This document shows, piece by piece, positions 1-34,486 of a stretch of DNA of 64,000 nt (positions are counted from its first letter, which is position 1; every line of letters starts with the position of its first letter). Position numbers and translations under genes: made by a program. The DNA is taken from contig JAQOOI010000015.1 in the NCBI GenBank assembly GCA_028554645.1, positions 558,001-622,000 of the forward strand, in the 5' to 3' direction. The notes under the pieces were generated by a model. The model saw only the letters and a list, made by a program, of their open reading frames with translations, did no database searches and was not told the DNA's origin. The DNA is from Omphalotus guepiniiformis (lineage: Eukaryota > Basidiomycota > Agaricomycetes > Agaricales > Omphalotaceae).

Positions 1-1153
1 GGTCGAAGTTTCCCATCTTTCTTTGCCACAAAGAAGAATGGTGAGGCCATCGGTGACTTTGATGGTCTAATTCGTCCAGATTTCAGATTTTCCTTAATGA
101 ACTCATCTAAAACTTTCTGTTCCGAAGGATTTAATGGATAGACCTTGCAATCTACTGGCGTAAAGTCTGGCTTCAGTTCAATTGCATGGTCCCAGGGTCT
201 TCGTTCGGGTAAATTTTGGAAATCGGCTTCATCAAAAACATCCTTGTACTCATTGACGTACTTGTCTGCTTTTGACTCAGTCTTTTTGCCTTTTCCAAAG
301 TTCATACTCCGAAGATATCCGTCCCAATTCAGGTAAAACAACCGATCCCCTTCTTCCAGTTCTCGGACTTCAGCGTCGGATTCAGGTTTTAGGTAATACG
401 GTATGTAACCACACTTCTTAGGACATCGATCAAATTTTAAGGTTGAGTCATTCCAATCTATATTGGGGTTATGACGTCTTAACCAATCGAGTCCTAGGGA
501 TATGTCCGTTTTGCCTAAATTTGTAACAGCAAGTTCAATGCGTTCCGCATGATCTCCCATTACTAATCTGACTTCTATGAATCCTTCAATTGAACCGTCC
601 TCGTTTAAGGTACCATCAGCATTGTATACCGGCATCTTTACTGGTAATCTCTTAACAGTTAAGCCATGTCGCTCTACGAATTCTTTATTGACGCAAGAAC
701 CCGTTGCTCCACTGTCAAGTAATGCCGATGTTTCTATCTGCTTGCCACTTTCGATGTCATCGATTGTAACAGACAGCTTGAGATCTCTGCCTTTAGTACC
801 TTTTACGAACCGCAAGTTTTTCTTGAGTGACTTTACGGCTGTGACGGCTTCGCTAATGTCCAATGACCGGATCTGGGCAACCGTTTCTTCTGATGCTTCC
901 CTGGCCCGACAGGTTGGCATCCATGCTCTCAAAATTCCCACCGCTCGTTCTGACTCATCCTCCCTTACTCTCTGCGCTATCCATTCTGGTGAATTTGGCG
1001 GATAATGTTCTCTCACAGGCTTTGAATCGGACTTTGTAGATACTGACGCAAATTTATTCTCAGGATGATTAAATACAAAGTGAAAATTGCTATCTTCATG
1101 ATCTACACTAGACTGTTCCGATTCCGACTCAGAAGGACCTGTATTCACTTCTG
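1..1153 (-). CDS. pol of chromovirus copy A, partial (protease and start of RT)
   Basis: Start of the polyprotein read in the -1 frame relative to gag. Segments that can be compared with copy B match at protein level through the retropepsin DSG region and into the first RT motifs, where the window begins. I saw no stop in the compared stretches. Being downstream of the gag nonsense codon and normally made by frameshifting, it is probably not expressed from this copy. Confidence 0.75.
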
Positions 1154-2038
1154 AGCTTTGACAAAACCCGTGTCCGATTTCAACCAGTTTAAGAACCAAC
1201 TCGGCGGCTGTTCTTCTTTCTTCTCTTCTTCCTGCACATTCACCTGCCTCACTCTCTGACCCCGCTTTGCTGGACAATCCCGCGAGATATGCCCCCTCTG
1301 TCCGCAATTGAAACACTGCCCATTCCTTCGAGCCGCGTCAATGTCCATGGGTTTACCTGTACCCCCAAAGGTTGTTCCTGTGGCGTCTCTCCGATCACCA
1401 CTTCCTGCCGCATTTTGCGGACTTTCTCTTCTTGGCGTAAACACCGGTCGGTTCTGATTCTGATTCTTGCGCCATTCCTGACGCCTTCTCCATAGTTGAT
1501 CAATCTTGATCACTACGTCCTTCCATTCATCGTACACTTTGGGCAACTCGTCCCTCGTGTAGATGGCATCAATAGTTTTCTCGTTAATGCCCTACTCGAT
1601 GAGCCGCACCACATACGGGTCATCCTTCTTGTAATCCGCCTCTGTCAACAGTATCTCCAACTCCTGGAAATATTCCTCCGCCGTCCCTGCTCCCTGCTTC
1701 AACAACTCCACCTTTTCCTGCGCTGTCCTCTGCAGACCGGAATCTAGGAACGCCTTGTTCAAGGCTTGCTTGAAATGCGCCCAGTCCTTCTGCCACTTCT
1801 CGTTGTCTTGGTCAAAATGGGTATTATAGTAATTATTGACCCATCCGTCTACAAGCTTCCCATTCATGAAAGAGATTGCAACATCAATCCTTTCATCGTC
1901 GGTCGTGATACCGTTTTTCTTATCACGGATATATGTGAAGAGTCTTCGACGCCAATTCTTGAATTCGGATTTGACGCCGGTGAAGTTATCGGGTTTGTTG
2001 AGGAGTGATTTTCCTCGCGAAGTTTCAATTTCAGACAT
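1145..2038 (-). pseudogene. gag of chromovirus copy A, broken by an in-frame stop
   Basis: Structural Gag-like protein. Alignment with the intact 297-aa gag of copy B (29670-30563) shows the same frame throughout, but the codon at 1592-1594 is TAG where copy B has AAG (Lys). The broken product would be 148 aa, losing the CCHC zinc knuckle, which is still readable downstream (CFNCGQRGH). The slippery heptamer GGGTTTT near the gag end is kept. Copy A therefore cannot make normal Gag or Gag-Pol unless helped in trans. Confidence 0.9.
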
Positions 2039-2573
2039 TCTGATAGGAGTATGAGGTCGGGTAGAATAGGTAGATGATGCAAGAGATTTGTATGAAGGTG
2101 TGACAGGTGATGGGATAGTGGTTTCTTCGAAGAGACTGCTAAAGTTCCCCCAAGATTCCGTAATGGTAGAGTTTACTTCGGTCCGTCAGTAACCTCACGA
2201 AGAGATTTCGGGACCTTTTCTGCCTCTAATAAACGAGTTCCTAAATCTGTGCTCACTTGCTGAGTAAACCTGGGCGTGCCTTTCTAGGAGTGCACCTCGT
2301 TCCCCAAGCGCAAAGTCCCCTCCCCGAAGGTTGGTTATCAGACGATGCTTTCTGCTGCCAGTACCGAGTCGGACTCAACGTTACTCGTTTGTACTATAGG
2401 CGCAATTACTCTAATGGAGCACAGATTCCTAATTCGGACGGAAACCCGAATATCAAAGGGAGAAAACGAAGTAAGCGTGTGAAGGTGAAGAGAAACTTAC
2501 TTGCTACTGAAATAGCAACAAGAAGGCAAACTTGAATTGTGTTGGTCGGGTGAGTTGTGTAGCTTCGATCTTA

Positions 2574-3026
2574 TGTCAGCGACTCGAGTTATAAACTCAA
2601 ATAACCAAACACAATGATCTTAGTTTCACACGAGTAAGAGAAAAGCAGAAAGTGGAATTTGAGAAAAGAGACGATACAAGGAAGTATGCTAAGTACAAGT
2701 CTAAACTCGAGGAGTTATTGACAAGATCGAAGCTAAAGAAATATCTACCTAAGCGGACTTGTTATATACGTAAATAAAACCCTAAACCCTGGGCTATAAC
2801 CCTTGACTAATCCACCGTGTGTCTACCATGAGTTCGATCGCCTCAATTGTTTCATTAATGATCGTGATCGCCTTGAGGTCTACATGCTTGATCTCGATCA
2901 TCATGCTACCTACGTGTGTATTTAATATGACCCTAGATCTATAACTTAAGATGCTATCTACTGATAATAAAAGTGTCTATATGTACAAACAATGAGATAA
3001 GATGAAAAAAGAAAACATTCGTAACA
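2574..3026 (-). repeat. 5' LTR of chromovirus copy A
   Basis: 453 bp. On the minus strand it starts TGTTACGAAT at 3026 and ends GCTGACA at 2574, matching the 454-bp LTRs of copy B with a few substitutions (for example AACG to AATG near the start). It keeps the stretch complementary to the adjacent primer-binding site. Confidence 0.92.
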
Positions 3027-3854
3027 CTTCCGACGACGCGGAAGTAGAACACGTAAGGAGACACAGTGTTAGCGAACTACCGCGATACTTTCTAAAAGCG
3101 GCAAGATTATAACCCGATATAGGATACCCTGTTACCACGTACTATACTTCATCCCTACCTTACGCGGTGCACCATATGCACCATATATCTCATAACTGTC
3201 AAGTATCGCGACATTTGTTTGTACTATGTAAATAGAAATACTGTATATAAGAAATAGAACCTGGGCAAGGAAGGACAGGTTCCCGAGCCCCCCCCCCCAT
3301 AGAGCTAATAGCATTGGTGTGTGGAAAAGCTTAAGTCCCTCTGAGTGATTAGAAGTTTTAAAGTGTTAACCGTCGCGTTAGTTCATAAGTCAGTGTGCCT
3401 AAGTGTTTACAAGCGGGATCGTCTGGTACCGCGGAGCCTGTGTGTGTAGTGTGAATAAGAGTGGATCGTCTGGTCACTCGTTGAACTCGTCGTCTGGCAG
3501 TTCTGAAATCCTCCTATACCCAACTCCACTAAGCGAGAAGTCGTCTGGCATCTCCCAACAATCGTCTGGTTGTTGTATCGTTTGTAGTCACTGGTCGCGG
3601 TGATTTGTTAAAGTTACGCGTTAGTTCGTTTGAGTGGTGTGTAGCATAGAGTTATCTGTGCCGCGTCGGTTTTGACTGTGTCTCCGAGCTCCTCTTACAA
3701 CAACCTTATTCGCTTCACAGAGTTTGTTAGTCCCCCAAACCCCACGAACTTAAAAGTCTTTGTGTGTTGTGTGTGTGTTTTGAGTGCTTGATAGATTCAT
3801 TCGAGTTAGTTAGCACTTCTTCTCATTCATACCCCATACCAAGTACATCAACGG
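3026..3854 (+). repeat. Left arm of an 829-bp inverted repeat
   Basis: The reverse complement of 4435-5263 matches this arm without gaps; every stretch compared was identical. It includes a run of C near 3290 and TATATAAG at about 3243. Five TCGTCTGG motifs lie at about 3419-3567. On the left the match stops where LTR copy A was inserted, so the original arm probably continues beyond that retroelement. No recognisable protein is encoded. Candidate origins: long terminal inverted repeat of a foldback DNA transposon, or two LTR-element ends head to head (TGTTAGCG at about 3063 looks LTR-like). Confidence 0.93.
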
Positions 3855-4434
3855 AAGCGCGACGACGGATGATTACCTACCTGCGGTGTGATACCCATGT
3901 CTCTCATGTCTCCACTGCTTCAGTACAGCCCGTGGCCCAAGTTTTTCCTCGCGTATCGTGCACCTCGACGCAGTATTCGTCTCAGGACGTATCCTCGGCC
4001 GTCCTTGTTGGGTACGCTAGGGCAGATGTCAGCGTTCTGACGTGGTTAGCGACTACGCGATAGGCAGTGTCTATACCGTCGGCATCATCGTCTCCAAACC
4101 ATCCTTGATACGGTCTGACTCCAGTGTGTCGTCGAAGGTGACGGATAGCGAGGCGTGTACATAGTTGCGCTGATTGAGGTTCAAACTTGGGTGTGATTTC
4201 GAAGATTAGGACCTGGAAGTCGTAAACGAGAATTATAACGAGTCAGAGGAGATGTGTATGGTGACGGTAAGAAACTGTATCCATGGCGAAACTCACTTGC
4301 TTAATCTCTAGGCCTCGACACAGATAACGCTTCACGCAGGCTTCACGTACTCCGCTGCAGAAAAATCTCGACCTCTAAACCTCTAAATGTATATCCCGGC
4401 GTCGGCATTGTATCCAATTCTTTCTGGCAGAGCA
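3855..4434. other. Spacer between the inverted-repeat arms
   Basis: 580 bp of unique sequence. Only short open frames, no recognisable domain, no tRNA-like pattern. It would form the loop of the inverted repeat. The two arm-spacer junctions differ in sequence (AAGCGC on the left, TGCTCT when the right junction is read inverted), so the spacer is not symmetric. Confidence 0.7.
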
Positions 4435-5263
4435 CCGTTGATGTACTTGGTATGGGGTATGAATGAGAAGAAGTGCTAACTAACTCGAATGAATCTATCA
4501 AGCACTCAAAACACACACACAACACACAAAGACTTTTAAGTTCGTGGGGTTTGGGGGACTAACAAACTCTGTGAAGCGAATAAGGTTGTTGTAAGAGGAG
4601 CTCGGAGACACAGTCAAAACCGACGCGGCACAGATAACTCTATGCTACACACCACTCAAACGAACTAACGCGTAACTTTAACAAATCACCGCGACCAGTG
4701 ACTACAAACGATACAACAACCAGACGATTGTTGGGAGATGCCAGACGACTTCTCGCTTAGTGGAGTTGGGTATAGGAGGATTTCAGAACTGCCAGACGAC
4801 GAGTTCAACGAGTGACCAGACGATCCACTCTTATTCACACTACACACACAGGCTCCGCGGTACCAGACGATCCCGCTTGTAAACACTTAGGCACACTGAC
4901 TTATGAACTAACGCGACGGTTAACACTTTAAAACTTCTAATCACTCAGAGGGACTTAAGCTTTTCCACACACCAATGCTATTAGCTCTATGGGGGGGGGG
5001 GCTCGGGAACCTGTCCTTCCTTGCCCAGGTTCTATTTCTTATATACAGTATTTCTATTTACATAGTACAAACAAATGTCGCGATACTTGACAGTTATGAG
5101 ATATATGGTGCATATGGTGCACCGCGTAAGGTAGGGATGAAGTATAGTACGTGGTAACAGGGTATCCTATATCGGGTTATAATCTTGCCGCTTTTAGAAA
5201 GTATCGCGGTAGTTCGCTAACACTGTGTCTCCTTACGTGTTCTACTTCCGCGTCGTCGGAAGT
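4435..5263 (-). repeat. Right arm of the 829-bp inverted repeat
   Basis: Reverse complement of 3026-3854. Beyond 5263 the sequence continues with similar composition and more CCGCG-type motifs (5387, 5459, 5581), suggesting that the repeat unit really extends to the right and that only the left copy has been cut by the retroelement insertion. Confidence 0.93.
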
Positions 5264-7814: not shown

Positions 7815-8983
7815 CTTCTCCACTGGTAACGCCGGGCGGAAGGAAACAACATAATGCGGTCCCGATGAGGCTTTAACGTTTTTGGAAACCTTTCCTCGAT
7901 ATAACATCACTCAAACTAATATCAAAGGAGCATTCACGTTTTCCCGCAAGGTTCTTTAACGATGACTATAAGATAAAATAGATAAAGGCATGGAAGGAAA
8001 GTAGTGAGGTGAAGAAATCAATTACGACGCGGACGGCTGAAAGGCACAAAAATGAGAATGACGACACCGCTCACACTTAACAGGATCAAGGCAAGGAAAA
8101 TTGGGCTTCACCAGGGTGACACGTGACAGTCAGGAATATGCCGAAAAGTGACGTGCCGAAATGAATGACAGCGGCATCACGCTTAACTGGATCAAAATTG
8201 GCACAAAAATCGCGAGAAAGAACGAGTTCTACATTTACATTTCGAACTCGTAACAACGCACGGACCATCAAAACTGTGTTCCGAATCCCAGCCAGTTCCA
8301 GCATTAAACGCACTGAGCTTTACGTTCATTCTCAATCTCTGCAAAGGCAAGACATCAAGATAATTAGAAAAGGGAATGCTTAACAGGATTCATAGGCTGG
8401 TACTGCTTGAAGGACCTTATAAGGTGAGTTCAAGTCGATTTTTTGTTTCACTTTTTTTTCTGTGCTGTCTTTTATGATGAGATTTTTCAAAGAGTTTCAA
8501 CGAGCGTTCGTTCATATGAATGACGCGATGTGTCTTTCAAATGATCCTAGTTATCCTGAACCCTATCCTTTCATCTTGCTATACTCTAAAATTTTTTGCT
8601 GTGGGCTAATTCTGAATTTTCTCTAGTTTTCATCCAGAGTCTTTGAATCGTCGATTTTCTTTGTATAATAAGATTTTCATGGAATACACATATGTTCGCC
8701 CTTGTCTTTCCGAGTTTATGGTACGACGCACGCCGTCACCGGACAGACAATTGAATACGAGAAAGCATACATGAGGACCGCTTAAAGAACGAGATACTCC
8801 CCATTCGAATATGGCGAGTATTTGCGGCTTTGCGTTCGAGCAGACTACAAAAACACTGCGCAGTTCTGGGAGCGCAGCCGAAAGCCTTTTGTTTCTTCCA
8901 GCTTTCATGCGTGCTCTATTAGTGTCTTTTTATGAATTCAACGCTAAATGTTATCAGCAAACTTCAACCCTAGCTGCTAGAAT
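7815..8983. other. No gene seen, left flank of the KDZ element
   Basis: Only short open frames without likeness. Two similar stretches (about 8046-8090 and 8160-8205, both with a CAC(A/G)CTTAAC-GGATCAA pattern) may be an old short duplication. The KDZ element begins at the right edge. Confidence 0.5.
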
Positions 8984-9263
8984 GAAGATTAAATAAGGGT
9001 AGTTGCCCATCAAGGGAGAGCCTTCAGAAAGGGCAGTTGCCCTTGACACTTTATAGGGCGCATTTTTGGGCTTTAGGGCAGTTACCCTTATCCCTTATAT
9101 GGGTATGTCACACATCACATATTGTTACAGATTGTCACGGTGTCACTCGGAGTCACTGGTGGCTACAATCACGTGACCTGGAAACTTTTTCTGGGCGTCC
9201 CATTTTGGATTCTGTTCACACACGGCAAGGGTGACTCACAAAATACATACTTGTCACATGATT
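8984..9263 (+). repeat. Left terminal inverted repeat of the KDZ element
   Basis: Starts GAAGATTAAATAAGGG and matches the reverse complement of 20933-21210 almost perfectly (one extra AC at about 9222). Holds three near-palindromic words of the form GGGYAGTTRCCC (8998, 9031, 9076), probably sites for transposase binding. Confidence 0.93.
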
Positions 9264-9442
9264 AAATGAGATTTTTCCGGCCCGTTTTGCATGCCCTTTA
9301 TATATTTCCACCCAGCTATTTTGATGCATTAGCTAGATCCGTCATTTTGAGTACATCCGTATTATTGAGATGAATTAATACATTTTGTTATCACAGAAGT
9401 GTTCGTCTCTATATAGGTTGCAAAAATGCTCAGTTAAGTATG

Positions 9443-9512
9443 TGTTCACATGGACAAGTGGGTGGTGTCTCCGTTGATTGTGTAACGCGGAGGTCCATGG
9501 TTCAAGCCCTTC
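9443..9512 (+). other. tRNA-like sequence inside the left end of the KDZ element
   Basis: GGTTCAAGCCC at about 9489 resembles a Pol III B box and is preceded by CTCCG...CGGAG, which can pair like an anticodon stem. The acceptor stem is not convincing. Best viewed as a possible tRNA-derived relic or SINE. Confidence 0.3.
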
Positions 9513-9683
9513 TGACCACAAACTTTATTTTGATTTTTCAGTCCCTTATAACCAACTATGTCAAATTTTTGTTCCGAAAGTATCTGCAGTTCCTCATAAA
9601 ATATTAAACACTTCATTGCACTTTGTATAGTTCTCATTACTTCACTAACCACTGAAATACAAAGGAAACACCGCACATCCATT

Positions 9684-12227
9684 TTAGACAGATGACGAGG
9701 CCTCAGGGACCCCCACAATAAGCTGGCCAAGTACAAAACACACGTCACGAATTGCCGCAGAGATCACCCCTCCCTCCTCCTCCTTCTGAGCCTTCTCTCG
9801 ACCTGTCTTGGTTGGCATTTTGTCAACAATATGAATCCAGAATGCCAAGCAGGCAATGACCACCGAAATCCCGTTAGGGCCTGAGTGTGCAAGCTCGTCC
9901 CACTGCCCACGCCCCCCCTGGTGCACAACGTCGTATTTCTCCAACACCGGCCGATGATCAATGAAGAGTGAGAGACGCCACTCTGGCTGCAACGCCTCCC
10001 ACCAGACCCAGAACTGGGAGCCGAGCATCTTTGAGTCAGTTGCAAAAGGTCGCCAGTCAGGACGCCGGGCCCTGGCAACCCAGTCCCCCACACAGATCGG
10101 CCTACCTTCAGCGCTCAGCTTCTTTGACACCCCTCCGCTATGCGTGTCCTCGAACTTCAACCACAATTTCAACATCTCCCGCCATTGAGTCTGTGAATGA
10201 TGTGGGACATCCTTCGCAACGGTGAGGGTGTTTAGAGCATATAATGGTGCCTCGACGCTGAGAACAGGCAGGCCGGCTTCATCAAAGGTGATGGGAAGTG
10301 GGGGCGCCCGCTTACGTTCGACCCCTTGGAGCGCAGCCTTTCGACTTGACCTCTTTCTCTGAGGCTCGCTCTCATCAAAACCCACCCTCTTCCGCTTCTT
10401 ATTCGCCACTGCCTCTACTACTTTCCGCTTCTTACTCTCCACCTCCTTCCCCTTCGATCGGTTTGGCGCTGCTTCGTTATCCACCTTTTTTCCCCTCTTC
10501 GAAGCCTTCTTCATACTTGCGGCGGACTTCCTCTCAGGTTGCGCTCCAAGTTCTGGACTATCAGCGCCACGGTCCGCTGCCGACGGCTCTGGAGTACCAG
10601 CAGGACTGGGCACTGGGGTGGCTGGAGCAGAGGAAGTAGGACCAGCAGAGGGGTGTTCGGGTACAGCATCCATAGCCTTGGGAGAGGGAGCAGAGATAGC
10701 ACCAGAGGCAGGTGCAGCAACGGTAGTCGTTGACAGAGCGGTAGCAGGAGGTGGGGAAGGTGGGGAGCCAGTTGGCTGAGTACCAACTGCAGGCGCGCTG
10801 GTCGAAGTAGAAGAGTCGGTATGCCTGGAGCCAGCAGACAAGACGGGAGGGGACATCTGGCCTGCAGATTTTGTACGACTTGATCGCTCAGTGTTCGACC
10901 CTGACAACGAGCGTTCTGCACGGTCTGAGGACCTCTTCTTCCGCCCCAAGTCCGACTGTGAAGCCTCAATATTGTTGCCTTCGGAAATAGACCAACTGAA
11001 AACGTTGGGGCTATCCTCGAGCGCAACTCCAAGCTCCTCCTCAAACTCGTCGGCCAAAGCTCGTGCTTTACATTCCTCCTCAGCTGTGAAATCACATTAG
11101 ATCCTTTCCATCTGATATGAAAGCATTCACGTACTATAGCACTTCTGCAAAAACCGCCCCATACTCGGAAATAGATGCTTGTTCCACGCCACGTATTCCG
11201 AAGCTCCAAAATTCTGTGGTATATCCCCTTGTGTAGTGCCAGAATGTACCCTGCCAACAATCTTAGTATAGTTCTATGGAGAGTGGATAGCACGTACGAG
11301 ATGATGTTCAATCTTCCCTTGTCGATTGGCTCTGGTCCACCTGCAACGAAGGAGCACTTCCACCCAGTGTGCTCGCAAATTCCATCGAGGATCGGCTTGA
11401 CAAAACGGGTAAGGTTGTTGATAGAACTACGCTGAGGTCAGTATCGTATCATAATGAATGAATGGCAGCTGCGTACCGTTGATAATCCTCACGCTTCGTT
11501 GACGCCGGTCCGGTCAGCTTTGCATTATATTCCTCCACATCTGCTTCGTGCTTTTCCTTTGCAACGACCTCCCACCTCCCCTTCTCGTCTTCCGACAGCT
11601 TATCCCACTCTTTCGTCACCACATCCTGATACAATTTTGCCATATCCCTACGAACCACCTGCTTCTTCGCATCCTCGTAACGTTGCCCGATGACTTCATC
11701 ATTGTCCTTGGCCCACACAAGCTTCGCGGTCTTGCGGCGTGGCTTTGAGGAACAAACACCATCGGTGAGCTTCAGCATCAGCACGGACAGAGGATTAAGC
11801 TCCTCCTTCTTCATCCCGATGTCGTTCTGTTTGGCGTAGGTGCTTTTGAGGTAACGTTCGATTTGCTGTGGGAAGAAACACGTTCGCTCAGTTTAGTCGC
11901 GTCGCGGTCAAGTGATCATTGATCAGAACTTACTCCTCGACGTAGCCTCAAAGTGTCTTTATACAGGTCATGTTTCTTTTGGGCCTCTTCGTCGCTACCT
12001 GGGTCTGGATACTCGACTGCGGCCAAGTCATCATTGACAGCATCAAGCTCTTCTTGTGTACGTTCCAGATCCAATGGTAAGTCAACCGGCCAACGGTTGA
12101 ACACCAGGCGACATATCTCAACAACACAATCTTTCGCGGTGCCAGCTCTGACAGCGGCCTCATATCGGGGATAGAGGGAGTCAATGAAAGCTTGCCGTTG
12201 CCCTTTAATGGCTCGAGGCTGGGGCAT
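9684..12227 (-). CDS. KDZ-cargo protein, 775 aa, HMG-like segment and low-complexity middle; function unknown
   Basis: Five exons: 12227-11934, 11865-11477, 11426-11298, 11250-11135, 11083-9684; all junctions are GT-AG and the frame closes exactly. In order: a charged N-terminus; a segment at about residues 165-200 (YQDVVTKEWDKLSEDEKGRW) with the look of an HMG box; a conserved-looking block with TGWKCSF and SVHSGTTQGD; a long Ser/Pro/Ala-rich stretch with basic KKRK-type nuclear signals; and a Trp-rich C-terminal block (QFWVWWEALQPEWRLSLF). Similar large proteins accompany agaricomycete transposons from memory, but I cannot name a function; nuclear DNA binding is an inference. It is divergent from the gene at 12651, sharing the 12228-12650 interval. 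Confidence 0.8.
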
Positions 12228-12650
12228 AACACGCTACTAGTTGTAATGTAAGTCAGATTATGATGCTCTGTCTGCATTGGCACACTCACCTTCCGATGCT
12301 GTGCAGGGAGAAATAGAGGGATTGAGGTACTTTTCCTCAGTTATTTTTGCTGGTGAGCAGTCCCTACTCTGACCTAGCTAGGTCAAAAATCACCAGGCGC
12401 AGACTATTTAGGGCAGTTACCCTTGAAAGCTTGATCTTCGGCTGGAGCCTCACCCCTAGGACAATATCCCTTAAAGTAAAACCACCATCACGCAAGATAG
12501 ACCATAATGATCTCCAAGCGACCAAGTGGCACAACCCTTTTTCCGGCAGACAGATCACCCGCTCCCCCGCGTGATACTGATACAGCCCTCAGCCCTTGGC
12601 CCTTTCGTGCCCAACCCACTCCATCCCTTCTTCTCTTCCTTGGCTCCATC
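12228..12650. promoter_or_regulatory. Divergent promoter interval with an internal copy of a TIR motif
   Basis: 423 bp between two divergently read cargo genes. It holds an 18-bp word (TTTAGGGCAGTTACCCTT, 12407-12424) identical to 9072-9089 in the left terminal repeat. This may be an internal transposase-binding site that links cargo expression to the transposase; that role is inference. Confidence 0.5.
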
Positions 12651-13650
12651 ATGCCTAACATCCCCCCTAGTAAGTCCTCCCCACTCCCTTGCTCCCTTTC
12701 TGCTCTAACCTGAGCCAGCACCTGCTACACCTACATTTAGTACACCTGGGAGGCGCATCAGGTACCAAGCTGAAGGAACTCCGACAAGCTGTACGTTTGA
12801 AGTTTTAAATTCCGATTATTGCTAAAGTTTCAAACCACGATAGATATCACGATCACTACTACGACTACCGTGGTGACGGTCGATTTTCAGCTCCCCCCTC
12901 AGCCAATCGTAATCTCAGACTCCGAGGACGAGTCCGAGGACCAACGTGAGGACCAGCCAACTATAATATCAGACTCCGAGGGCGACTCTGAGGATCAACA
13001 TTCGAACCAACGTGAGGAGGAGCCTAGAGCATTGCCGGTTGCGAACCACAAAAACGTACGGCCCACAGCAGAGTCACAGCAGCCACCACCGTCACCACCC
13101 ACATCTACTGCCCCAGCAGCGCTGCAACCAAGAGACTTGCAAGACCCTCCCTCGTACAACCAAGTCGTGAGATCGGTAAGCTTTCATTCCAATTCGTAAA
13201 CTAGGGCGCTTCAGGTTAAGATTTTACTTAGGTTGAGTTCACCAACGACACGTCCGATTTCTACGCCCGGCGCTTTACCCAGCCCATCATTGCGCCCCAT
13301 CAAATTGATGCCCAGTCCGTTTCAGGCAGAATGACCCCTATGAAATGGTACGTGGTCACCAGAGGTGCAATGGTTGGAGTTTTCGGGGACTGGTAAGTAC
13401 TTTTCTGACCAACCTCAGTGCACATACTCACTCCCTTCAAAGGCTGGAGGTTGCGCCGATCACTCAGGGGTTTAGAACTGCAGAGCAGAAAAGCTACAGG
13501 ACCCTCAGCCAGGCATTGGAGAGCTATACTAACAGTTATAATGCTCGCAAACTGACGGTCATAAATCGGGCAGGTATCCCTCAAACAAGGCAGTGGTGCT
13601 CCGGGTTAGACTTGACATCTCAGCTCTCAGATCTCACCCTGTCAGGATGA
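12651..13650 (+). CDS. KDZ-cargo protein with RNase H1 N-terminal-like (hybrid-binding) domain, about 244 aa
   Basis: Five exons: 12651-12669, 12719-12790, 12844-13175, 13232-13392, 13443-13650; phases close exactly with GT-AG introns. The N-terminal half is Thr/Pro-rich and acidic, with two IxISDSE-type motifs (IVISDSEDESED and IISDSEGD) that resemble SUMO-interaction motifs. The C-terminal part (WYVVTRGAMVGVFGDW, then GFRTAEQKSYRTLSQA) matches the caulimovirus viroplasmin/RNase H1 N-terminal fold, known to bind RNA-DNA hybrids or double-stranded RNA. No RNase H catalytic domain follows. A role in nucleic-acid handling during transposition is inference. Confidence 0.75.
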
Positions 13651-13804
13651 AAACGTGTAACTCGATGAAAACAAGTACTTCTCTACTGTAGCAAATTGAA
13701 ATATGTAAATTGTTTTCTCTCTATCCATTGACCCTGTTCCACATTGTGAATGAGTAATCAGTGATGGAATAATATTTCCAATATCAAGTGCAATTAGTGA
13801 CAGT

Positions 13805-14361
13805 CTAGACAGCAGTACCGACACAGCCCTTCTTCCTATGTCAGAAGTCAGTGGCTGAAGACTTTGTAAGAAAAGAAAGATCTCACCGAGCACGCCGTTC
13901 GCGTTCTTTCTGGGCCAACTTTTCTCGATTATCCTCCCGCCAAAGGGCTTGTTGGGCACGCTTCCTGCCTCGCACCTCTTCTTGCTCTTCATGGGACAGA
14001 GTACGAAGGAGCTCTTGACGCCTGCAATAAAGACTAAGCACCGAAACTAACACTATTATTGGCCAGACTTGCCGTTTATTAGCTTGTACTACTGCATGTA
14101 TTTTTGCATCTCGATTTCTAATAAGGAAAAAGTCTGAACCTGTGACTTGCGAGAGTATTCAAAAAAAAATTCGTACCTGCTATACTGCTTATGAGCACGC
14201 ATCCTCTTTAGAATCACTTGCCTCCCAATTTTGCGCATAGGGAGAAAAAGTGCAATTTCCTCCTCGTCGTGCCCGCGGTCCCGCATCCATTGAAGCTCAG
14301 CTTCGCCAGTCAAGTCCAAACGGGTATCTGGATCATTGAGCATTCGAGTGATTCGAGGCAT
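13805..14361 (-). CDS. Small highly charged helical protein, 116 aa, KDZ cargo
   Basis: Three exons: 14361-14177, 14021-13887, 13835-13805, with GT-AG introns and exact phase closure. The product is rich in Arg, Glu and Gln (QELLRTLSHEEQEEVRGRKR and KLAQKERERRARRKK), likely alpha-helical and possibly coiled coil with a basic nuclear-type tail. An N-terminal block reads LDLTGEAELQWMRDRGHDEE. I do not recognise the family. It lies downstream of the TET/JBP gene on the same strand; both fall between the terminal repeats. Confidence 0.65.
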
Positions 14362-14882
14362 GGACGTAGATCAATATGGTTCAATTGCCGTGCGGAATAC
14401 GGCTGTATGTGGCTAATGTGGCGTAAGGCAGAAAGTCGCCACGCCCAATCCTCGTAGAACTTCATTGACAGTATTTTAGCAGAGATGACCATTTGAGAGG
14501 GTACCCGAGGTAGCTTTCCATTTCTCCTGTAGTTTCGCGATCGAACTTGAACCGAAGGAGACAGCGGAATGTTACTCGAAATGCTCGTTGCCACTGGTTG
14601 GCACTAGTACGGTTCCGCAGGTTCGTTTGGGGGTCAAGAAGGTCATTGGTGTTCTGAATTATGTGTGGCATGTTCAGAAGACATACGGTTTGCATTTAAC
14701 ATCATAATTTGCATAGACTTGTTCCAGCGCAATTAACCTCCGGTCAGTCAGACAGGCAACCTTCGCTTTCACTTCACTCATTTGAACACACGTGGATTCA
14801 TGAATTCACAAGGTACTCAGGCTCGAATCACGAGTGTTTCATTGATACAATATTTTTCATTGATACAATACAAGACATCTAA

Positions 14883-16857
14883 TTAGGTTACTGCTAATCC
14901 AATATCTTTTAAGGTGGAGAACAGAGAAAGGCCCATCTGCCAGCGGCTGCGTCGACGTTCTAACTCCTGCTTTGCCTCCTCGGACCCCAGGCTCTCATTA
15001 AAATCTGCCTCTAACTGAAAACCATGGTCGACCCAGCGAAACAGAGCGCCGGCGCAGTATTGGGTGAATGACATACGGGTCTCATGCGGTCGAATAAGGG
15101 TGTTGTAATGTCTACAAACCCCTGAGGGAATCAAAATCAGAGAGCCGGGGGGAAATTCAATGACAACCTTGAAATCGGGTAGAACTAGGTGGCCGCCCTT
15201 CTTGGGATCGTAGGTCCCTAGACTCCATATTGCGCACCATCCGAACGGCAGGTTGGCGAAGTCCACGTGTTCCTGGCAAATTGTGTGGGGTCCGAAGTTG
15301 AAAGCTGCAGCTGCGAATACGCTGTTGTTGAACAGGCGGTTGAGAGACATGTTGGAGCCCAGAAGAGCGGTGAAGTGCCTCGAGTAGTAATCAAACAACT
15401 TGGGGGCCCATGCCTTGAAAACACCTGTTCGTGGGGGCTGTTAGCAAGATGGGGTTCTAAGGGGAGAAAACTTGCCTGTGGCGAAACCGGATAGCCGTTT
15501 GAATGCCCAGTGAGAAACAAGGGTGGCTAAAACCTTGGAGTTTGCTTTGTTATGAACAAGGTTGCCTGGGCGCTATTTGAAAAACCGTCAGTGGCTTGGT
15601 AGAGATTGTAGAAGCTGATACTAACGATCTGGCCTCCCCCGTGTGATATTCCGGTGGAAAGGGCTGGAAATTCCCCTCGTCGATGGCTGGTCTGGTCTGA
15701 TGAAAATTTGCAGGATGGCCGCAGTTTGGCTAGCAGCTCGGTTGCACTTCGGATCACATCAGGCCAAGCAGGGTCGTCAGGGTGCCCGGCTAGAAGGGCT
15801 ATCACTCGATTGTCTTGGTCAAGGAAGGGGGCTGAGGAGCTGAAGGGAACCGGTTAGGTTAGATGTATATCAAAGGTAGAGCTCCTGCACTTACTTGGCA
15901 TCCCATTCAATCAGTTCGTATTGAAACTCAGAGTCATGCCCAATTAGCTCTTCCACCCAGTACTGCCCAGGGTTAGGTTTGCTACGCAAGCCGACGTAGG
16001 CTGTGGATGCTACGGGTGCCTCTTTCTCCAGGGAGTAGGTGACACAGATGGGGTCGCAATGGGCAACGTGCTTGTGCAATGTAGCCGGTCACACCCTGAA
16101 GTCCTCAGCCGTTTGATTGGCGGCCTTGGCAGCCAACTCTTCCTGGCGAACTTTCTTTCGGTGGCGTTTGCTAGATTTTTTTGCATGACCTTTGCGCTTG
16201 AGTGGTGCAGGTTGGGGTGGGATACCCGCAGGGGTCGGGTGGTTGTGTGTTGGCCTTGTCAAAGGGATCGGGCTGGGGGACCTTGACCAGTCGGACAAGT
16301 CTGTGAGTGGGGAGAGTGGGGTTGGGGGGCGAGAGGATGGGGGGGTTGACGGTTGGTCCAAATTATCTTGTTCACCCTCATGCAGAATCATGTCGAATAG
16401 GGCGGACTCAAAATGATAGCCTTGGAATTCTGGCTTAACGGCGTAGGGGGAGAAAGGGGTCCCGCGGCGTGTTCGTCGACGCTGATCTGGAGAAATGGGA
16501 TAAATTTTCAATACAGATTATGAAGCTAATGATTAGTCTAAAAGATGTGGAGGAAGGCCACCCTGCACTAAACCTAGTATTCCCACGGCAGCGAGTATTC
16601 AAGGTGGGCTGGGCGGTGTGTCCAGCACTGTCTGTTGGGCTCCGAGGATGAACTTAAGCCTGAGTAGCCAAGTATTCCCGTGGCAACGAGTATTCAAGGC
16701 TACTGCAGGCCAGTTCAACCAGTGAGCTAACCCCTCGATCAGCCAAGTATTCCCGTGGCGATGAGTATTCATGGTGAGCGACGGGTAGTAATGCAACAGA
16801 GACTAATGAGAGGAAAGCAAAAGTAACGGACTCACCGTTTAGTATTGGCAGCCTCAT
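14883..16857 (-). pseudogene. TET/JBP-family 2OG-Fe(II) dioxygenase, catalytic domain intact but one in-frame TGA
   Basis: Oxidises 5-methylcytosine (or thymine, in JBP) with Fe(II) and 2-oxoglutarate in known relatives. Five exons: 16857-16836, 16486-15895, 15839-15626, 15572-15476 (GC-AG intron after it), 15424-14883; 489 codons. The catalytic block shows HRRGEFPALSTGISHGGGQ, iron ligands H361 and D363 (CQEHVDFANLPFG), H414 (GVCRHYN) and the 2OG-binding R425 (ETRMSFTQY). The N-terminal part has a basic nuclear signal (LKRKGHAKKSSKRHRKK). Codon 140 is TGA (16089-16091) with the frame open on both sides, probably CGA changed to TGA. Removing it as a 24-nt intron would keep frame but is too short to be likely. 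The first intron (16487-16835) is unusually long. Confidence 0.9.
16570..16780. repeat. Three-copy minisatellite in the first intron of the TET/JBP gene
   Basis: Three units of the form AGTATTCCCRYGGCRAYGAGTATTCAWGG begin at about 16577, 16671 and 16745, separated by unrelated spacers. Each unit holds the word AGTATTC twice. Confidence 0.85.
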
Positions 16858-17019
16858 CTTCCGAGGTGTAAGGGCGAGGGTTGTGTAAGAGCGGGGTCGT
16901 GGGCTTGATCAAATGTTTGGAGTCAAACCGTGGCCTGAAAACTAAGAAGGCTAACAAGGGCAAATAACGCATCCGCGTCGTTGCATGTGATCAGACAGTG
17001 ACAGCCTCAGACTATTAAC
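16858..17019. promoter_or_regulatory. Bidirectional promoter between TET/JBP and KDZ transposase
   Basis: Only 162 bp separate the two start codons, which face away from each other, so the dioxygenase and transposase are probably expressed together. No clear TATA box was seen. Confidence 0.6.
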
Positions 17020-20000
17020 ATGAAACGTAAATCCAGTCGTCAGCTGCAGCGGGGAGACGCTCATCGTCATCGAGTAAACGACACAAACTTCAGGGCAGTT
17101 TTTACCCGCGAAGGTCAGATATCAACCTACACCAGCCGTCTGCTCAAGGCTCCTCGAACCGCGGTCGATTCTTCCTCTGAATGGCTTGCCTCTTGGGCGC
17201 CGCTGGATGCTACGAGCTTGGGGATGGATAATGACGGTGTATGGTATGATGAAGAGATGGCGAGAGATCCGTTTGAGCCAGTCAGTTCTACGGTCGTTGA
17301 CATTGGGAAGCTGAAGAAAACCAAAAGGTCTAGACGTTCGGTGAGTTAATTATCCAGTACTTCCGACATGTGTGTTCAACGTGTGTATTAGAGACGACCA
17401 CATCTCGTATGGGCAGAGCAATACCGTCAATTATATCTGGATGAGCTACTTCGAGCGGACGGGCGAGGGGATTTCATGGGACAGAAAACTTGTGTAGATT
17501 GTGTTGGAAGAAAGAAGGCGGCTGCGGAGCAAGGGCCTGGGGAATATCGTTGTCGCGATTGCTTTATGCAAGACATGGTTTGCAGTGTGTGCTGTGTTCG
17601 TAGGCATCGCCAGAATCCTTTTCATAGGATCGAGGTATGTTTCTGTGAATATGGATTGAAATACAAAGTCTAACACTGTACGCAGAGATGGACTGGCAGG
17701 CAGTTCGTCCGGTCGACTTTACATGATCTTGGGCTGGTCATCCATTTGAATCACCTGAGTAGCTCTTGCCCCTCTGGCCACCCCTCCCACCAACAGTTGC
17801 GGATAATGCACACCAATGGCATCTATCAGGTTGTGGTGCAGTTCTGCCATTGCCAACGACGGGTTCCTGACCACATACAGCTCCTTCGACGGGGCATCTA
17901 TCCGGCCTCACAAGATGTGGTGAAGACTTGCGCCACCTTTCGTCTCCTGGAGCATTTACATTTACTGTCCTTGGTTGGGAAAGGTGGGACCTACGACTAC
18001 TATCGCTTCCTTGAACGCCTTACCAACAACACTGGTGTTGGTGTGCCACACCCCCGGTATCGGGCTTTGCAACGAATGCTCATTCAATGGCGAAACCTCA
18101 AGATGCTGAAACGTGCGGGGCGCGGCAATATTGTGAACGGGATAGCCACCACGGGTGCTGGAGAGCTGGGTTTACTTTGTCCCTCATGCCCTCACCCTGG
18201 TATCAATCTTGTAGAGGGATGGGACAAGGCTGGGCCTCAGGAAAAGTCCGCCGCTTATTTCTGACTTTCTTTACTGAGATTGACTTATCGTCTGCAGATT
18301 TCTTTATGCGATAGTGCTTTGTATCGATTTTAATTTTCGAATGAAAAACCAGTTGGTATCTTCTTGGATTCGAGATCCTGGGTTGAGTGACGGGTTGGCG
18401 TATTTTGTACCTCGGGCACCCTATGAGAAGTACATTCTGAAACATGTTGGGGAAGATGAGGTGTGTGGTGTATTCTCATCTTTCTGCCCTGATTGACCAG
18501 GTCCGCAGATAAGCTCCTGTGCTGGTTTTTCTGCATTGGCGCAGCAGAACACTCGGTCATCAAAGGGCTTAAGATATACTGGGGTGGGTGCAGTTAGTTG
18601 TGGAAGAAGTGAAATGGTGTTACCTCAGGGGGTTGGCAATTGTGAGAAGGGAGAACGGTGGGTACTTTCAACCTAATTCATTAGTTCCGTTGCTGAATTC
18701 TTTGCTAGATATGCAAACTCCGATTTTATTTTTGCCTCCAGCCTTCAACTTTACGCGCGTGCCCTCCAAATGCTGATAGTCAGCTATGATATATGCTGCC
18801 AGTGGTTCGCAAACCTGTACAAGAGGATGGAGAGGTGGGACGCTGGTCTAAAGGTTCCATTGTCGCTGGCTATGACCCCCGTTATCCCGAAATTTCACCT
18901 TCCTGCTCACCGAGAGGAGGGCCACCACGGGTTTAATTGTAATTTGGTCAAAGGTCTGGGTGCCTGTGACTGCGAGGGTCCTGAGCGCGTTTGGGCCGTG
19001 ATGAACGGCGCGGCGGCATCCACCAAGCCTATGGGTCCAGGTTCTCGAGTGGATGTTCTCAACGATCATTTCGGGTGGCACAATTATCAAAAATATATTG
19101 GACATGGTGAGGGGAGAGCGTTAATCTATTAAAGTATATCTTACTAACTCCCTGGCAGGAAAGCTCTACTCCTCAAAGTACAGGCAGGCCGTCAAGGACC
19201 GAAACACCCATGTAGAGGCGCATCGTGGTCTAACCGAAACGCTGCCGGAAGGATTGAGAGAGAAGTGGGAAAGTCAGTGTCAGGCTTGGGATGAAAGCAC
19301 CTATCCAAGGCGGGGCGTTCTCAACCCCTTCCAATCAACTCAAACTTGTGTGTACCTTTGATTATGATCCCCTCCGCCCTCGCTAATTGCCGCAACCCCA
19401 GTCATGTCCTTGGCGAAGGTGGAGAAAGAGCTTGCGGAGTATGAGGAGGATCGGTTGAGGAAGGGGGGGTATCCTATCATAAAACTGGACCCGGGGCATT
19501 CTTGATACTTGGCCTTGAACTAGAGGAATCTCAGTGCGTGTAATCCTTTCCACCAAAGATTGCTAATGCCTCACCAGTTTTCTATCACAGGTGTAAAGTT
19601 CGAAAACTCGCTCACGCCAATCGAAACCCCACCCAAATACAATCCACAGCACTTACGGAGCAGCGAACTGTTCTGCGTACCAAGATTCGTAACTGGGTTT
19701 TGTTGCGGCACATTTATATGCCTGGTCTTCTTCGCACGTTGATGTCCATAGGGGAAGAATTCGGTGATCCAACCAGTGACGACGTCCAGGCAGAAAACAT
19801 CCCTCTTTGGCTACCCTCCTCCCTACCTGCAGACCAACGGGAGGCGACCTGTTTTCCTGGCTTGCCCGGGATGGAGGACACTCTTCGAACTGCACAGTGT
19901 AACAACAGCCTAGATGGGGTGCGACACACATTGCGAGTCAAGCTGCGCATGCTCCTGTTCAAGTATGCAAACATTAGTGGCCAGCGAGACGGGGTACGGT

Positions 20001-20842
20001 CGCGTACTGTTATCGACGGAATTCATGAGCGTGCCAAGGGGTTTGCAGACACGTATCGGCGAGCTCGGCTTGCAAAGCTGGCTCTTTCAGGCCCTGGGAA
20101 GTGGGAGACCACCTTACAAGTCCTCCAGGACTCTGACGTCCGCTCTTATGTCGATCCAGAGCGTGTGCGGGACGGCCCGGGTCGAAGGGGTACTGTAGAG
20201 GTGGAAGTGGGAGACCAGCAAGAGCATCCAGGCCAACTTCCCCCAGTGGAAGGTAGCGGGATTGATCTAGTGTCAGAGCCCAGGCATGAGTTGGAGTTCC
20301 GACGGGAACATGGCACTGGACAGGCTCGAATGCAGCTGTCCTGGATCTGGCTCACCAGCCGAATCAACACCCAGGATGGAGCAGACGAAAATGATGAAAT
20401 ACTTCGGGAAGTGTGGGCCAGAAGCCGTGCTCGAGCAGAGCGGGCTAAGGAGGAAGTTCTACGGCTGAAGGAGGAGATGCGAAGAACCCTGGTGTTTCTA
20501 TTGTGGAAGGCGAAGTGGTGGGAGGAGCTGGTGGGTAACCGACATTCTGAGACCTCAGATACAGCACTCCAGGAAGGCTTAGAAACCTACGCTCTTAAGC
20601 AGGCCCTAAATCAAAGAGCCCTGGCTCAATGTTTCAAGGATATGTGGTCTACGTCACTTGCTAGCGGGGGTGGAATAGACCGGAGTGCGGGAGAGGAAAA
20701 TGAGGGCTGGGAAGATGAGGGAGATGAGGGAGGGGACGAGGAGGACGAAGATGAGGAGGATGATGAGCATGAGGGGAATGGGGAGGAGGTAGGAGATGAG
20801 GAGGAGGGCCAGGAAGCAATGCAGGTAATCAATGTGGACTAA
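17020..20842 (+). pseudogene. KDZ transposase (CxC2 cysteine cluster), one-nucleotide frameshift
   Basis: Catalyses excision and insertion of the element. Nine exons: 17020-17340, 17392-17634, 17686-18245, 18298-18460, 18509-18657, 18709-19106, 19159-19347, 19402-19533, 19591-20842. It would be 1135 aa. Residues ~140-186 form the CxC2 zinc cluster (CVDCVGRK, CRDCF, CSVCC, RRH). KDZ core motifs follow: LHDLGLVIHL, TNGIYQVVVQFCHCQ, GELGLLCPSCPHPGINL, FLYAIVLCIDFNFRMK, VSYDICCQW (Asp ~504), IPKFHLPAH, CDCEGPERVWA (~564), NDHFG, and PLWLPSSLP. The C-terminus is strongly acidic. Exon 8 is one base short: a seven-G run (19463-19469) needs eight for the frame to continue into HKTGPGAFLILGLELEESQ. 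That is either an inactivating deletion or a homopolymer error. Confidence 0.92.
19463..19469 (+). other. Frameshift site in the KDZ transposase (G7 run)
   Basis: With seven Gs the frame meets a stop at 19503. With eight Gs the frame continues and matches the family. All other exons fit in frame. Confidence 0.85.
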
Positions 20843-20932
20843 GTCATCATCTGTATGTAAGCAATATTGATTACATGAGCATATCTGGCAGAATTCCGTC
20901 TGAAAAAAACAATGCCAAAGGATGGCGCATTG

Positions 20933-21210
20933 AATCATGTGACAAGTATGTATTTTGTGAGTCACCCTTGCCGTGTGAACAGAATCCAAAATGGGACGCC
21001 CAGAAAAAGTTTCCAGGTCACGTGATTGTAGCCACCAGTGACTCCGAGTGACACCGTGACAATCTGTAACAATATGTGATGTGTGACATACCCATATAAG
21101 GGATAAGGGTAACTGCCCTAAAGCCCAAAAATGCGCCCTATAAAGTGTCAAGGGCAACTGCCCTTTCTGAAGGCTCTCCCTTGATGGGCAACTACCCTTA
21201 TTTAATCTTC
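20933..21210 (-). repeat. Right terminal inverted repeat of the KDZ element
   Basis: 278 bp, reverse complement of 8984-9263. It starts 90 bp after the transposase stop codon at 20842. The outermost bases (TTAATCTTC at 21202-21210) mirror the left end. Confidence 0.93.
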
Positions 21211-21320
21211 TAGGCAGCAGCTACTGGTGCAAACTTGAGGTGAAAGGATGTCAACGACAATCTCCCGCCCAGGCCTGTCCTCCTACTCCTCATTGCCTGG
21301 TTATGCTTGATTACTTTCCT
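21211..21320. other. Right flank of the KDZ element, no feature
   Basis: Short unique sequence between the terminal repeat and a decayed FunK1 gene. No matching target duplication was found next to the repeat. Confidence 0.5.
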
Positions 21321-27600: not shown

Positions 27601-28677
27601 ATCACCCCGGGCCAGTGAGTAAGACATCAAGACATAGCTAAATGTTACTCACCGATGGAATGTAGGCAATATGATGACATGCACCCGAGCTTGGCTGCGC
27701 TCGAATATACTTCGTCAAGTTGCCGAGCATACCATAGATAGGCCATAGCTTAGCTATCCCAAAACTCGTGAGATGGGTTGAATCCGACCACACCATGAGT
27801 GCAGCAATGATATGTTCCAGTTTGCAAGAAGGAGAGTCTGGAGAAGGTGGAGCACGCTGGACTCTATCGTGCTCTGCAATGAAGGCATCTGATGTATAAA
27901 GTTCACCATAAACTCGCTGCTCCTGGTCCGCGTTTGGTGGCTGATGAAACAGTTTGAATGGAGACAGGTGATATTTCTTCGCAAGAGGATCTGCAAACAC
28001 GTCTCGAATGACTGAGAGCAAGTCACGAAAGTACAAGCCAGGAACAGAAAACACCTTCGGCGGAACATTCTTCTGACCCGATGGCACCTCAATATCAACA
28101 CTTCTCTCTTTAAAACCATTCAGAAAAGACGGCGACGAATCTACAGAGGCTTTGTCTGCTCGCTGATTCTCTGTGTGTGCATTGAACCCTGCGAGGTCTG
28201 CGACGTGAAAGTCTGGTGCCAGTAAAACTTCGTCAACCAGGCGAGTAGTTTCAGCCTCCGACTTTGAGCCACTACCACTATTCAACCACTGCATCAGGCG
28301 GTAAATCGACATATTCCCGAATGGCCAAGGTGGATTATTTTCAGAGGCGGTGGACATGGAACCAGGATTATCTTCGTTGGATTCAGCTGCTTGGTCGACC
28401 CTTCGATTGTAAAGGTCTCTTGCTTGGACAAACGAGTCGGGGTCATACGACGGACGATGGGGATACAAGCGATAGAGATAAAAGGGATTTAAGAGAGTTT
28501 TCAATGTATCGCGAACTATGAGGACTACACGAGGTAGTGACCGCAATGGTGTATCTGAAACTCCTGGGCTAGTGGTTCCGGTTTCATTCTTTTCAGCAAA
28601 GATAGCGGCTGGTGGCACCTGAGGCAGTATGTCTCGGTAACGTTTAGGAAGCTGAATATCCCGCTTTGGCCTGCCGG

Positions 28678-29131
28678 TGTTACGAACGTTTTCTTTTTTC
28701 ATCTTATCTCATTGTTTGTACATATGGACACTTTTATTATCAGTAGATAGCATCTTAAGTTATAGATCTAGGGTTATATTAAATACACACGTAGGTAGCA
28801 TAATGATCGAGATCAAGCATGTAGACCTCAAGGCGATCACGATCATTAATGAAACACTTGAGGCGATCGAACTCATGGTAGACACACGGTGGATTAGTCA
28901 AGGGTTATAGCCCAGGGTTTAGGGTTTTATTTACGTATATAACAAGTCCGCTTAGGTAGATATTTCTTTAGCTTCGATCTTGTCAATAACTCCTCGAGTT
29001 TAGACTTGTACTTAGCATAACATCTTTGTATCATTCCTCTTCTCAATTCTATTTTCTGCTTTTCTCTTATTCGTGTGAAACTGAGATTCTTGTGTTTGGT
29101 TATTTGAGTTTGACAACTCGAGTCGCTGACA
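28678..29131 (+). repeat. 5' LTR of chromovirus copy B
   Basis: 454 bp, TGTTACGAAC...GTCGCTGACA, identical to 34498-34951. Contains TATATAA (28936-28942) and the primer sequence TAGCTTCGATCTT (28969-28981). Confidence 0.97.
28936..28981 (+). promoter_or_regulatory. LTR core promoter and predicted transcript start
   Basis: TATATAA at 28936-28942. A start ~30 bp downstream would fall at about 28966-28972. The stretch complementary to the primer-binding site starts at 28969, so the predicted RNA would begin with the primer, as needed for Tf1-type self-priming. Confidence 0.7.
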
Positions 29132-29132
29132 T

Positions 29133-29145
29133 AAGATCGAAGCTA
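29133..29145 (+). promoter_or_regulatory. Self-priming primer-binding site
   Basis: AAGATCGAAGCTA, two bases after the 5' LTR end, is a perfect 13-bp reverse complement of LTR positions 28969-28981. This is the arrangement of Tf1, where the 5' end of the element RNA folds back and primes reverse transcription instead of a tRNA. Copy A keeps the same pairing. Confidence 0.8.
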
Positions 29146-29669
29146 CACAACTCACCCGACCAACACAATTCAAATCGCCTTCTTGTTGCTATTTCAGTAG
29201 CAAGTAAGTTTCTCTTGACCCTTCACACGCTTACTTCATTTTCTCCCTTTGATATTCGGGTTTCCGTCCGAATTAGGAATCTGTGCTCCATTAGAGTAAT
29301 TGCGCCTATAGTACAAACGAGTAACGTTGAGTCCGACTTGGTACTGGCAGCAGAAAGCATCGTCTGATAACCAACCTTCGGGGAGGGGACTTTGCGCTTG
29401 GGGAACGAGGTGCACTCCTAGAAAGGCACGCCCAGGTTTACTCAGCAAACAAGCACAGATTAGGAACTCGTCTATTAGAGGTAGAAAAGGTCCCGAAATC
29501 TCTTCGTGAGGTTACTGACGGACCGAAGTAAACTCTACCATTACGGAATCTTGGGGGAACTTTAGCAGTCTCTTCGAAGAAAGAAACCACTATCCCATCA
29601 CCTATCACACCTTCCTACAAATCTCTTGCATCATCTCCCTATTCTACCCGACCTTCTACCCCTATCAGA

Positions 29670-33500: not shown

Positions 33501-34486
33501 TATACCGGTTATTAGGCATTCAAGGAAGCTTCACAACGGCATATCACCCACAGACGAATGGACAGACGGAACGGATGAACCAAGAGATTGAACATTATCT
33601 CCGGTTATTTATCAATCAACATCAGAACGACTGGCATGAATGGTTACCAACAGCAGAGTTCGTGTTGAATGATAGGATACACTCAGCCACGGGTGTTACT
33701 CCGTTCTATGCGGATATGGGACGACATCCGTATAAGGGAACAGCTCCAAGAACTCCGTCGGCAAATCCCACAGCACAGGAATTTGCCGATAAGATGATCA
33801 AGATCAGGGACGAAGTAGAGGCGGCGCTTAAGAAGGCAAAGGAAGACATGACTCGGTATTACGACAAGAAGAGGAAACCATCAGTCGAATATAAGCCTAA
33901 TGACAAAGTATGGCTTGAAGCGACAAACCTGACTTCTGATCGACCAATGAAGAAGTTGGATGATAAACGATTTGGTCCTTTTGAAGTCGTAAAGAAAGTT
34001 GGAGCGACGTCGTATCAACTAAAGATACCGAAGACTTGGAAGAGGATACATCCAGTCTTTAACGAAGTTTTACTGTCACCCTATCATCCGCCTGAATTCC
34101 CCGAACAGCCTAAGAATGATAATCCGCCACCAGTGATAGAAGGAGAAGAACCGGAGTTTGAAGTGGAAGAGATAGTAGATTCAGGGAAATATAGGGGAGG
34201 GAGATTCGGATACAAAGTCCAATGGAAGGGATACTCGCGGCACGAACAAACATGGGAACCATTAGCAAACCTTGCAAACGCAAAAGAAGCAATTGAAGAG
34301 TTTCATAAAAAATTCCCCACTAAACCACGACCACCTCAGTTAAGAAAGATTGAGGTTCCAATTTCCTTATTACCGACATCATTGTTACGACCTATCCCTG
34401 AAGCATATACGGAAGTAGTAGAAACGAAGAAGATGCCGACAGAAGCATTAGCAGTGAAGTTAGGACGATGGGGACATCGTCCCTAA
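30541..34486 (+). CDS. Pol polyprotein of chromovirus copy B: protease, RT, RNase H, integrase, chromodomain
   Basis: Open frame (30392-34486) in -1 relative to gag, translated after frameshifting at 30539-30545. Domains in order: aspartic protease with LLDSGATGSCVN (about 30985); reverse transcriptase with YLDDILVFT (about 32009); RNase H with VEADSSDYANGAVLS and YTDHQNL; integrase with the HHCC zinc region (LHHDTVLTGHPGQF...CEKCQATK, about 33067-33205) and DDE core residues in GTDLIG (33278), IHDRGPQ (33460) and TERMNQEIE (33568); and a C-terminal chromodomain (about 34155-34310, FGYKVQWKGYSRHEQTWEP) that in relatives guides insertion toward histone-marked chromatin. No stop or frameshift seen. 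Confidence 0.97.

Follow-up and report, generated by a model that had tools for sequence, protein, structure and literature searches.

The stretch of Omphalotus guepiniiformis DNA analysed here (64,000 nt, called the window below) lies on contig C14 of a genome of 42.5 Mb in 80 contigs. It contains, at positions 8965-21229, a KDZ transposon of 12,265 bp with CA...TG termini and five genes inside, one of which encodes a TET/JBP-fold dioxygenase. We consider it quite likely that this is a full-length KDZ cut-and-paste transposon, of the Kyakuja type by its ends, that is now disabled in the present copy. The TET/JBP gene can here be assigned to a transposon whose ends are exactly placed and of which an independent sister copy exists, and candidate partners can be named: a small protein recurring beside TET, an HMG-box-like protein and a protein with an RNase H1 N-terminal domain (RNase H1-N). 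The element offers a concrete system for asking if a transposon brings its own DNA-demethylation machinery. Its features are given below; the genes were spliced by eye, without a gene finder.

8958-8964, no strand: left target-site duplication CAAACTT, identical to 21230-21236
8965-9268, + strand: left terminal inverted repeat, with an imperfect outer 19 nt and a near-identical inner part
9684-12227, − strand: HMG-box-like gene, 775 aa, with an open frame across its five exons
12651-13650, + strand: gene with an RNase H1 N-terminal domain (Cauli_VI, Pfam PF01693), 263 aa from five exons
13883-14361, − strand: gene for a small basic protein of 107 aa, in two exons, located downstream of TET
14883-16857, − strand: gene for a TET/JBP-fold dioxygenase, modelled with five exons and one GC-AG intron
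16089-16091, − strand: in-frame TGA in TET exon 2, upstream of the catalytic domain; frame open here in the sister on contig C43
16571-16774, no strand: 34-nt direct repeat in three copies, within TET intron 1 and next to the divergent KDZ start (repeat search)
17020-20842, + strand: KDZ transposase gene, CxC2 cluster and KDZ core (Pfam)
19463-19469, + strand: run of seven G with a frame shift of the transposase, downstream of the KDZ core; frame open here in the C43 sister
20928-21229, − strand: right terminal inverted repeat, by alignment with the left one
21230-21236, no strand: right target-site duplication CAAACTT, a perfect 7-bp direct repeat with 8958-8964

The left end at 8965 begins with CAACCCTAG and the right end at 21229 finishes with TACTGGTG. 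A preliminary description of this DNA had placed the element at 8984-21210; these ends were rejected, as the target-site duplication and the CA...TG termini place the true ones 19 bp further out on each side. The long terminal inverted repeats that it had reported around a KDZ transposase and four other genes are indeed there. They measure about 300 bp, and the repeat search returns them as two pairs, 8971-9221/20973-21223 and 9219-9268/20928-20977, both at 98% identity. When aligned, the inner part (8984-9268) is identical at 282 of 283 positions, with one 2-nt gap, and the outer 19 nt at 11 of 19. When the two 45-nt flanks were shuffled 100,000 times, a 7-bp duplication abutting CA...TG came up 50 times, while any 7-mer shared between these flanks appeared in 1,494 of 20,000 shuffles. 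That the two repeats could stem from unrelated insertions, a concern of the preliminary description, is excluded, because the sister element at C43:56294-64803 has homologous ends and a 7-bp duplication of its own, GAAGCAT.

The genes follow each other in the order HMG-like (−), RNase H1-N (+), small (−), TET (−) and KDZ transposase (+). The earlier identification of a KDZ transposon with a TET/JBP gene is borne out by the Pfam matches of the transposase (KDZ PF18758, E 1.1e-50; CxC2 PF18803, E 2.3e-35; CxC1 below threshold) and by the fold and catalytic residues of the dioxygenase. The window TET protein has no Pfam match at E <= 1, as is also the case for the HMG-like and small genes, and no match in the PDB with phmmer; a TET profile (A1) likewise gave no TET among the 20 PDB matches listed. 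A fold comparison was therefore used, in which the TET/JBP double-stranded beta-helix is present in the dioxygenase family. The PF20515 profile matched nothing in the genome, the window TET gene included, and is hence uninformative.

For the active site, the window protein was compared with 38 homologs, chosen by hand and mostly long, from the best 120 of 604 TET-like proteins; the best-scoring among those 120 come from Stygiomarasmius, Lentinula and other mushrooms. The catalytic residues reported earlier are all found in the window exon, namely HVD, RHYN and the 2-oxoglutarate arginine, in columns that are invariant or nearly so, and it is upstream of them that the gene is interrupted by the TGA. 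A weak match to Pfam 2OG-FeII_Oxy_3 was seen in 13 of the 38 homologs. Among the closest known systems, CcTET of Coprinopsis cinerea has the same fold and iron-binding residues, with an identity of about 11-14% over the aligned fold. Three positions beyond the iron-binding Asp, the window protein and 38/38 homologs have an Asn, and the position matching CcTET 337 is Cys in all of them as well (by motif spacing, the alignment being less certain here). By motif position these correspond to Gly331 and Asp337 in CcTET (PMC11040006). The AG-type TETs of Kojima have Gly or Ser at the first of these positions and a conserved Asp at the second (PMC12730594), so that the Asn and Cys found here differ from that type; the HxE iron site of the PE type is not seen either, with HxD in 38/38 homologs. 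Apart from this family, the genome has a second TET/JBP clade (L078, C46:181495; L079, C5:11678), with one match above and one just under the Pfam Tet_JBP cut-off, in which by eye an Asp stands three after the presumed iron-site Asp.

We now consider the relatives of the element. A 26-nt end pattern occurs at four places in the genome: here, on C16, and twice on C43. The C43 sister measures 8,510 bp, has both ends homologous with CA...TG termini, and holds the RNase H1-N, small, TET and KDZ genes in the order and orientation of the window element. It recurs at C43:76395, 20,101 bp further on, with 5 differences in the 3,540 bp compared, all of them transitions; this double is either a tandem duplication or an assembly repeat. 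The C16 relative is broken. A terminus, the HMG-like gene and RNase H1-N are preserved there, their relative layout is unchanged, and a long terminal repeat (LTR) retrotransposon (549-bp direct repeats at 98.5% around gag-pol-like frames) stands between them; a second exon of the small gene adjoins RNase H1-N (E 2.3e-5). The gene models are those of the window element. Counting C43 once, RNase H1-N is found in 3/3 copies, the HMG-like gene in 2/3, TET and KDZ in 2/3, and the small gene in two copies, with one of its exons in the third.

The cargo belongs to the transposon family, since the sister carries four of the five genes and the broken relative keeps the HMG-like gene, RNase H1-N and part of the small gene. 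The cargo set between matching ends thus recurs within this genome. The earlier suggestion of a fuller cargo set holds in part: the HMG-like gene is not obligatory, because it was not found in the complete C43 element. The proportions of protein-changing and silent differences relative to C43 or C16, from exon-wise tblastn alignments, are 0.25/0.83 and 0.23/0.75 for the two parts of KDZ, 0.26/0.78 for TET, 0.28/0.76 and 0.36/0.76 for RNase H1-N, and 0.35/0.72 for the HMG-like gene; the silent sites are near saturation, which makes these ratios rough, and the small gene is outside the count. The KDZ, TET, RNase H1-N and HMG-like genes have nevertheless been maintained as proteins in the lineage.

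The HMG-like protein has 11 homologs at E <= 0.001 (7,998 candidates scored), and the model of one of them, P0124, suggests an HMG-box-like arrangement; Pfam gave no HMG match for the window protein. The RNase H1 N-terminal-like protein of the preliminary description is confirmed by PF01693, which matches all three family copies (E 3.3e-8 for the window, 1.2e-11 for the best), and among its Pfam matches there is no RNase H catalytic domain. Its similarity to RNase H1 proteins in the PDB is weak (E 0.022-0.94 only), and the search of a large protein set returned none at E <= 0.001 among 949 candidates. At L042 (C17:114043-117162) there is a further RNase H1 N-terminal-like exon (E 0.02); the KDZ gene at C17:110216, some 5 kb away, lacks a TET gene within 10 kb.

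The small gene gives six matches in the genome at E <= 1: the two exons here, one for each C43 copy, and C72:285043 and C18:340020 (E about 0.1), each of which lies between TET and KDZ genes. A profile of its two exons, seeded with four of the loci that it then finds (C14, C43, C72:283k and C13), detects it at 9/24 TET loci, downstream of TET and co-oriented with it, in both divergent (C14, C43) and convergent TET/KDZ layouts. The positive loci C72:508k and C46:378k resemble the C13 seed; C20:2274k, C16:197k, C18:338k and the C16 relative are neither seeds nor near copies. At the other 15/24 loci it was not found, only some 1.5-2.2 kb downstream of TET being covered at each locus. In the control set 2/39 loci match, and these are the C43 gene itself (L044) and the C16 relative (L046), as the set inadvertently contained the relatives' own stretches; the duplicate C43 copy (L016) had been left out. 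Since the profile finds the gene at TET loci and the controls match relatives only, it looks like a TET partner common to several KDZ families.

A further recurring feature is a 24-bp motif, TATTCCCNYGGCNNYGAGTATTCA, with three copies in the window TET intron 1 (placed by eye), beside the transposase start. Two copies are present in TET intron 1 of each C43 element, one of the two with 1 mismatch, another with 2 mismatches is found at C79:473586, upstream of a TET-like locus, and five further genome places have it with 3 mismatches. The reversed motif, used as a control pattern, has no genome match.

As to known systems, Iyer et al. in 2014 reportedly described KDZ-linked TET/JBP expansions in basidiomycetes with a divergent HMG protein as companion. 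These expansions resemble the present case in the combination of KDZ, TET/JBP and an HMG-like gene and in the large expansion within one genome. The linkage of KDZ and TET/JBP and a proposed anti-silencing role have already been published (Kojima 2025, PMC12730594), and the TET+ Kyakuja elements of that work share with ours the KDZ-group transposase, the TET/JBP gene inside a complete element and agaricomycete hosts. The 7-bp target-site duplication and CA...TG termini given for Kyakuja (PMC12730594) are found in both the window element and the C43 sister. Zisupton is similar in belonging to the KDZ group and having terminal inverted repeats, but its target-site duplication is 8 bp (PMC12730594) instead of 7 bp. 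In the main text of Kojima 2025 (PMC12730594), the terms HMG and RNase H have 0 occurrences each. Our literature searches, for which most subscription journals were out of scope, surfaced no publication about either the RNase H1-N companion or the small one, and we do not claim that these are unpublished; the small gene recurring beside TET, the invariant Asn and the TET intron 1 motif were likewise not found in the literature covered.

Several results weigh against the element being a Kyakuja-type transposon with a demethylating cargo. The terminal repeat sequence has no other match in the genome, and the relatives' ends are only 77-89% alike, so that recent mobility is unsupported. Kojima's two Laccaria Kyakuja families are without terminal inverted repeats (PMC12730594), whereas those of the window element are about 300 bp long; their absence is perhaps not defining for Kyakuja, being stated for these two families only. 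The CpG observed/expected ratio in KDZ cores did not separate loci with and without TET (medians 0.87 for 14 loci with TET within 10 kb and 0.85 for 13 without, p = 0.64). Finally, the transposase and TET are both interrupted as assembled, which means that this copy is not intact; the other three genes (HMG-like, RNase H1-N and small) have open frames in their spliced form.

Either interruption could stem from an error in assembly, more probably so at the G run. Long-read assemblies often err in homopolymer runs, and the transposase frame shift falls in seven G; together with the near-identical terminal repeats, this would fit an element that is in fact intact and active. We find this somewhat unlikely, as the TGA is outside any homopolymer and the two interruptions are independent of each other. 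In the C43 sister the frame is open at both positions, which shows that neither interruption is a feature of the family. A 24-nt intron that would remove the TET stop was considered by eye and is unsupported, the C43 frame being colinear and similar over that stretch.

For the disabled Kyakuja-type transposon that we favour, the following mechanism can be envisaged. The transposase would recognise the terminal repeats and insert with a 7-bp stagger, while TET would oxidise 5-methylcytosine (5mC) on the element or in the host, such that the element genes stay expressible. The HMG-like protein may bind or bend DNA, the RNase H1-N protein may bind an RNA:DNA hybrid or double-stranded RNA, and the small basic protein could be the partner of TET. 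The motif in TET intron 1, adjoining the transposase start, is a candidate binding site or regulatory element. It is plausible that TET undoes host methylation, and it may do so at the ends or the shared promoter of the element, as the preliminary description proposed; transposon-borne DNA demethylation in fungi is a proposal without experimental validation (Kojima 2025, PMC12730594; a 2026 review, PMC13297926).

A CpG depletion as footprint of demethylation was looked for at 20 hand-chosen KDZ loci and 7 others, with a null result. Besides the ratios given above, the TpG/CpA index has medians of 1.20 with TET and 1.30 without (p = 0.23), and the three lowest CpG values (0.32, 0.37 and 0.37) all belong to KDZ loci without TET. 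In the element itself the ratio is 0.72, and it is 1.05 and 0.88 in the window flanks. The comparison neither supports nor excludes the demethylation idea. Elsewhere in the window, the block 48001-52000 has a CpG observed/expected ratio of 0.16, compared to 0.72-1.08 in the other fifteen 4-kb blocks, and the GC content at 48-50 kb is 0.40-0.41.

The substrate of TET could also be a base other than 5mC (6-methyladenine (6mA), thymine or RNA), or the protein could be structural. The low identity to CcTET, which itself acts on both 5mC and 6mA (PMC11040006), and the weak 2OG-FeII_Oxy_3 matches point in that direction. We judge it unlikely in view of the invariant Asn, whose equivalent in TET2, Asn1387, bonds 5mC and blocks 6mA (PMC11040006). 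Quite improbable, in our opinion, is that TET serves host gene regulation through many KDZ/TET loci, the transposon being the vehicle. Consistent with such a role, the genome has tens of TET-like loci, including some on contigs without a listed KDZ (C54, C52), and no TET lies within 10 kb of 29 of the 55 KDZ loci listed by hand. Against it, two elements hold TET, the small gene and KDZ together inside their ends, and TET and the transposase are both interrupted in the window copy.

At the other 26 of the 55 loci a TET-like gene does lie within 10 kb, where about 1.8 would be expected at random, in convergent (11), divergent (10) and tandem (5) arrangements. The loci were listed by hand with one row each (55 of 98 KDZ rows; 69 of 150 TET rows, 68 after merging), and several are near-identical copies, so the counts are not independent. 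KDZ elements are also reported to be abundant in Marasmius oreades (PMC8290104). One can speculate, although we think it unlikely, that the transposon-borne TETs described here form a clade of their own, separate from the published AG, PE and PU types, whose 5mC pocket resembles that of TET2. Such TETs would travel with the small basic protein as a dedicated partner, the two genes forming a module that KDZ families exchange in both orientations, and would be aimed at the recurrent motif in the control region that TET and the transposase share.

Outside the element, the window contains by eye a Ty3-type LTR retrotransposon at 28678-34839, with a gag-like frame (29670-30563) and a pol-like frame (30392-34486). 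Its flanking direct repeats (28678 and 34498) are identical over 300 nt, and it is therefore probably a recent insertion. An inverted partial copy of it (95-99% identical to 28677-31707) is found in 1-5263, where 3026-3854 and 4435-5263 also form an inverted pair of 829 nt that matches perfectly. At 50410-51798 there are direct repeats whose period is 99 nt (12 registers listed), within a frame of 673 aa that is ankyrin-like by reading.

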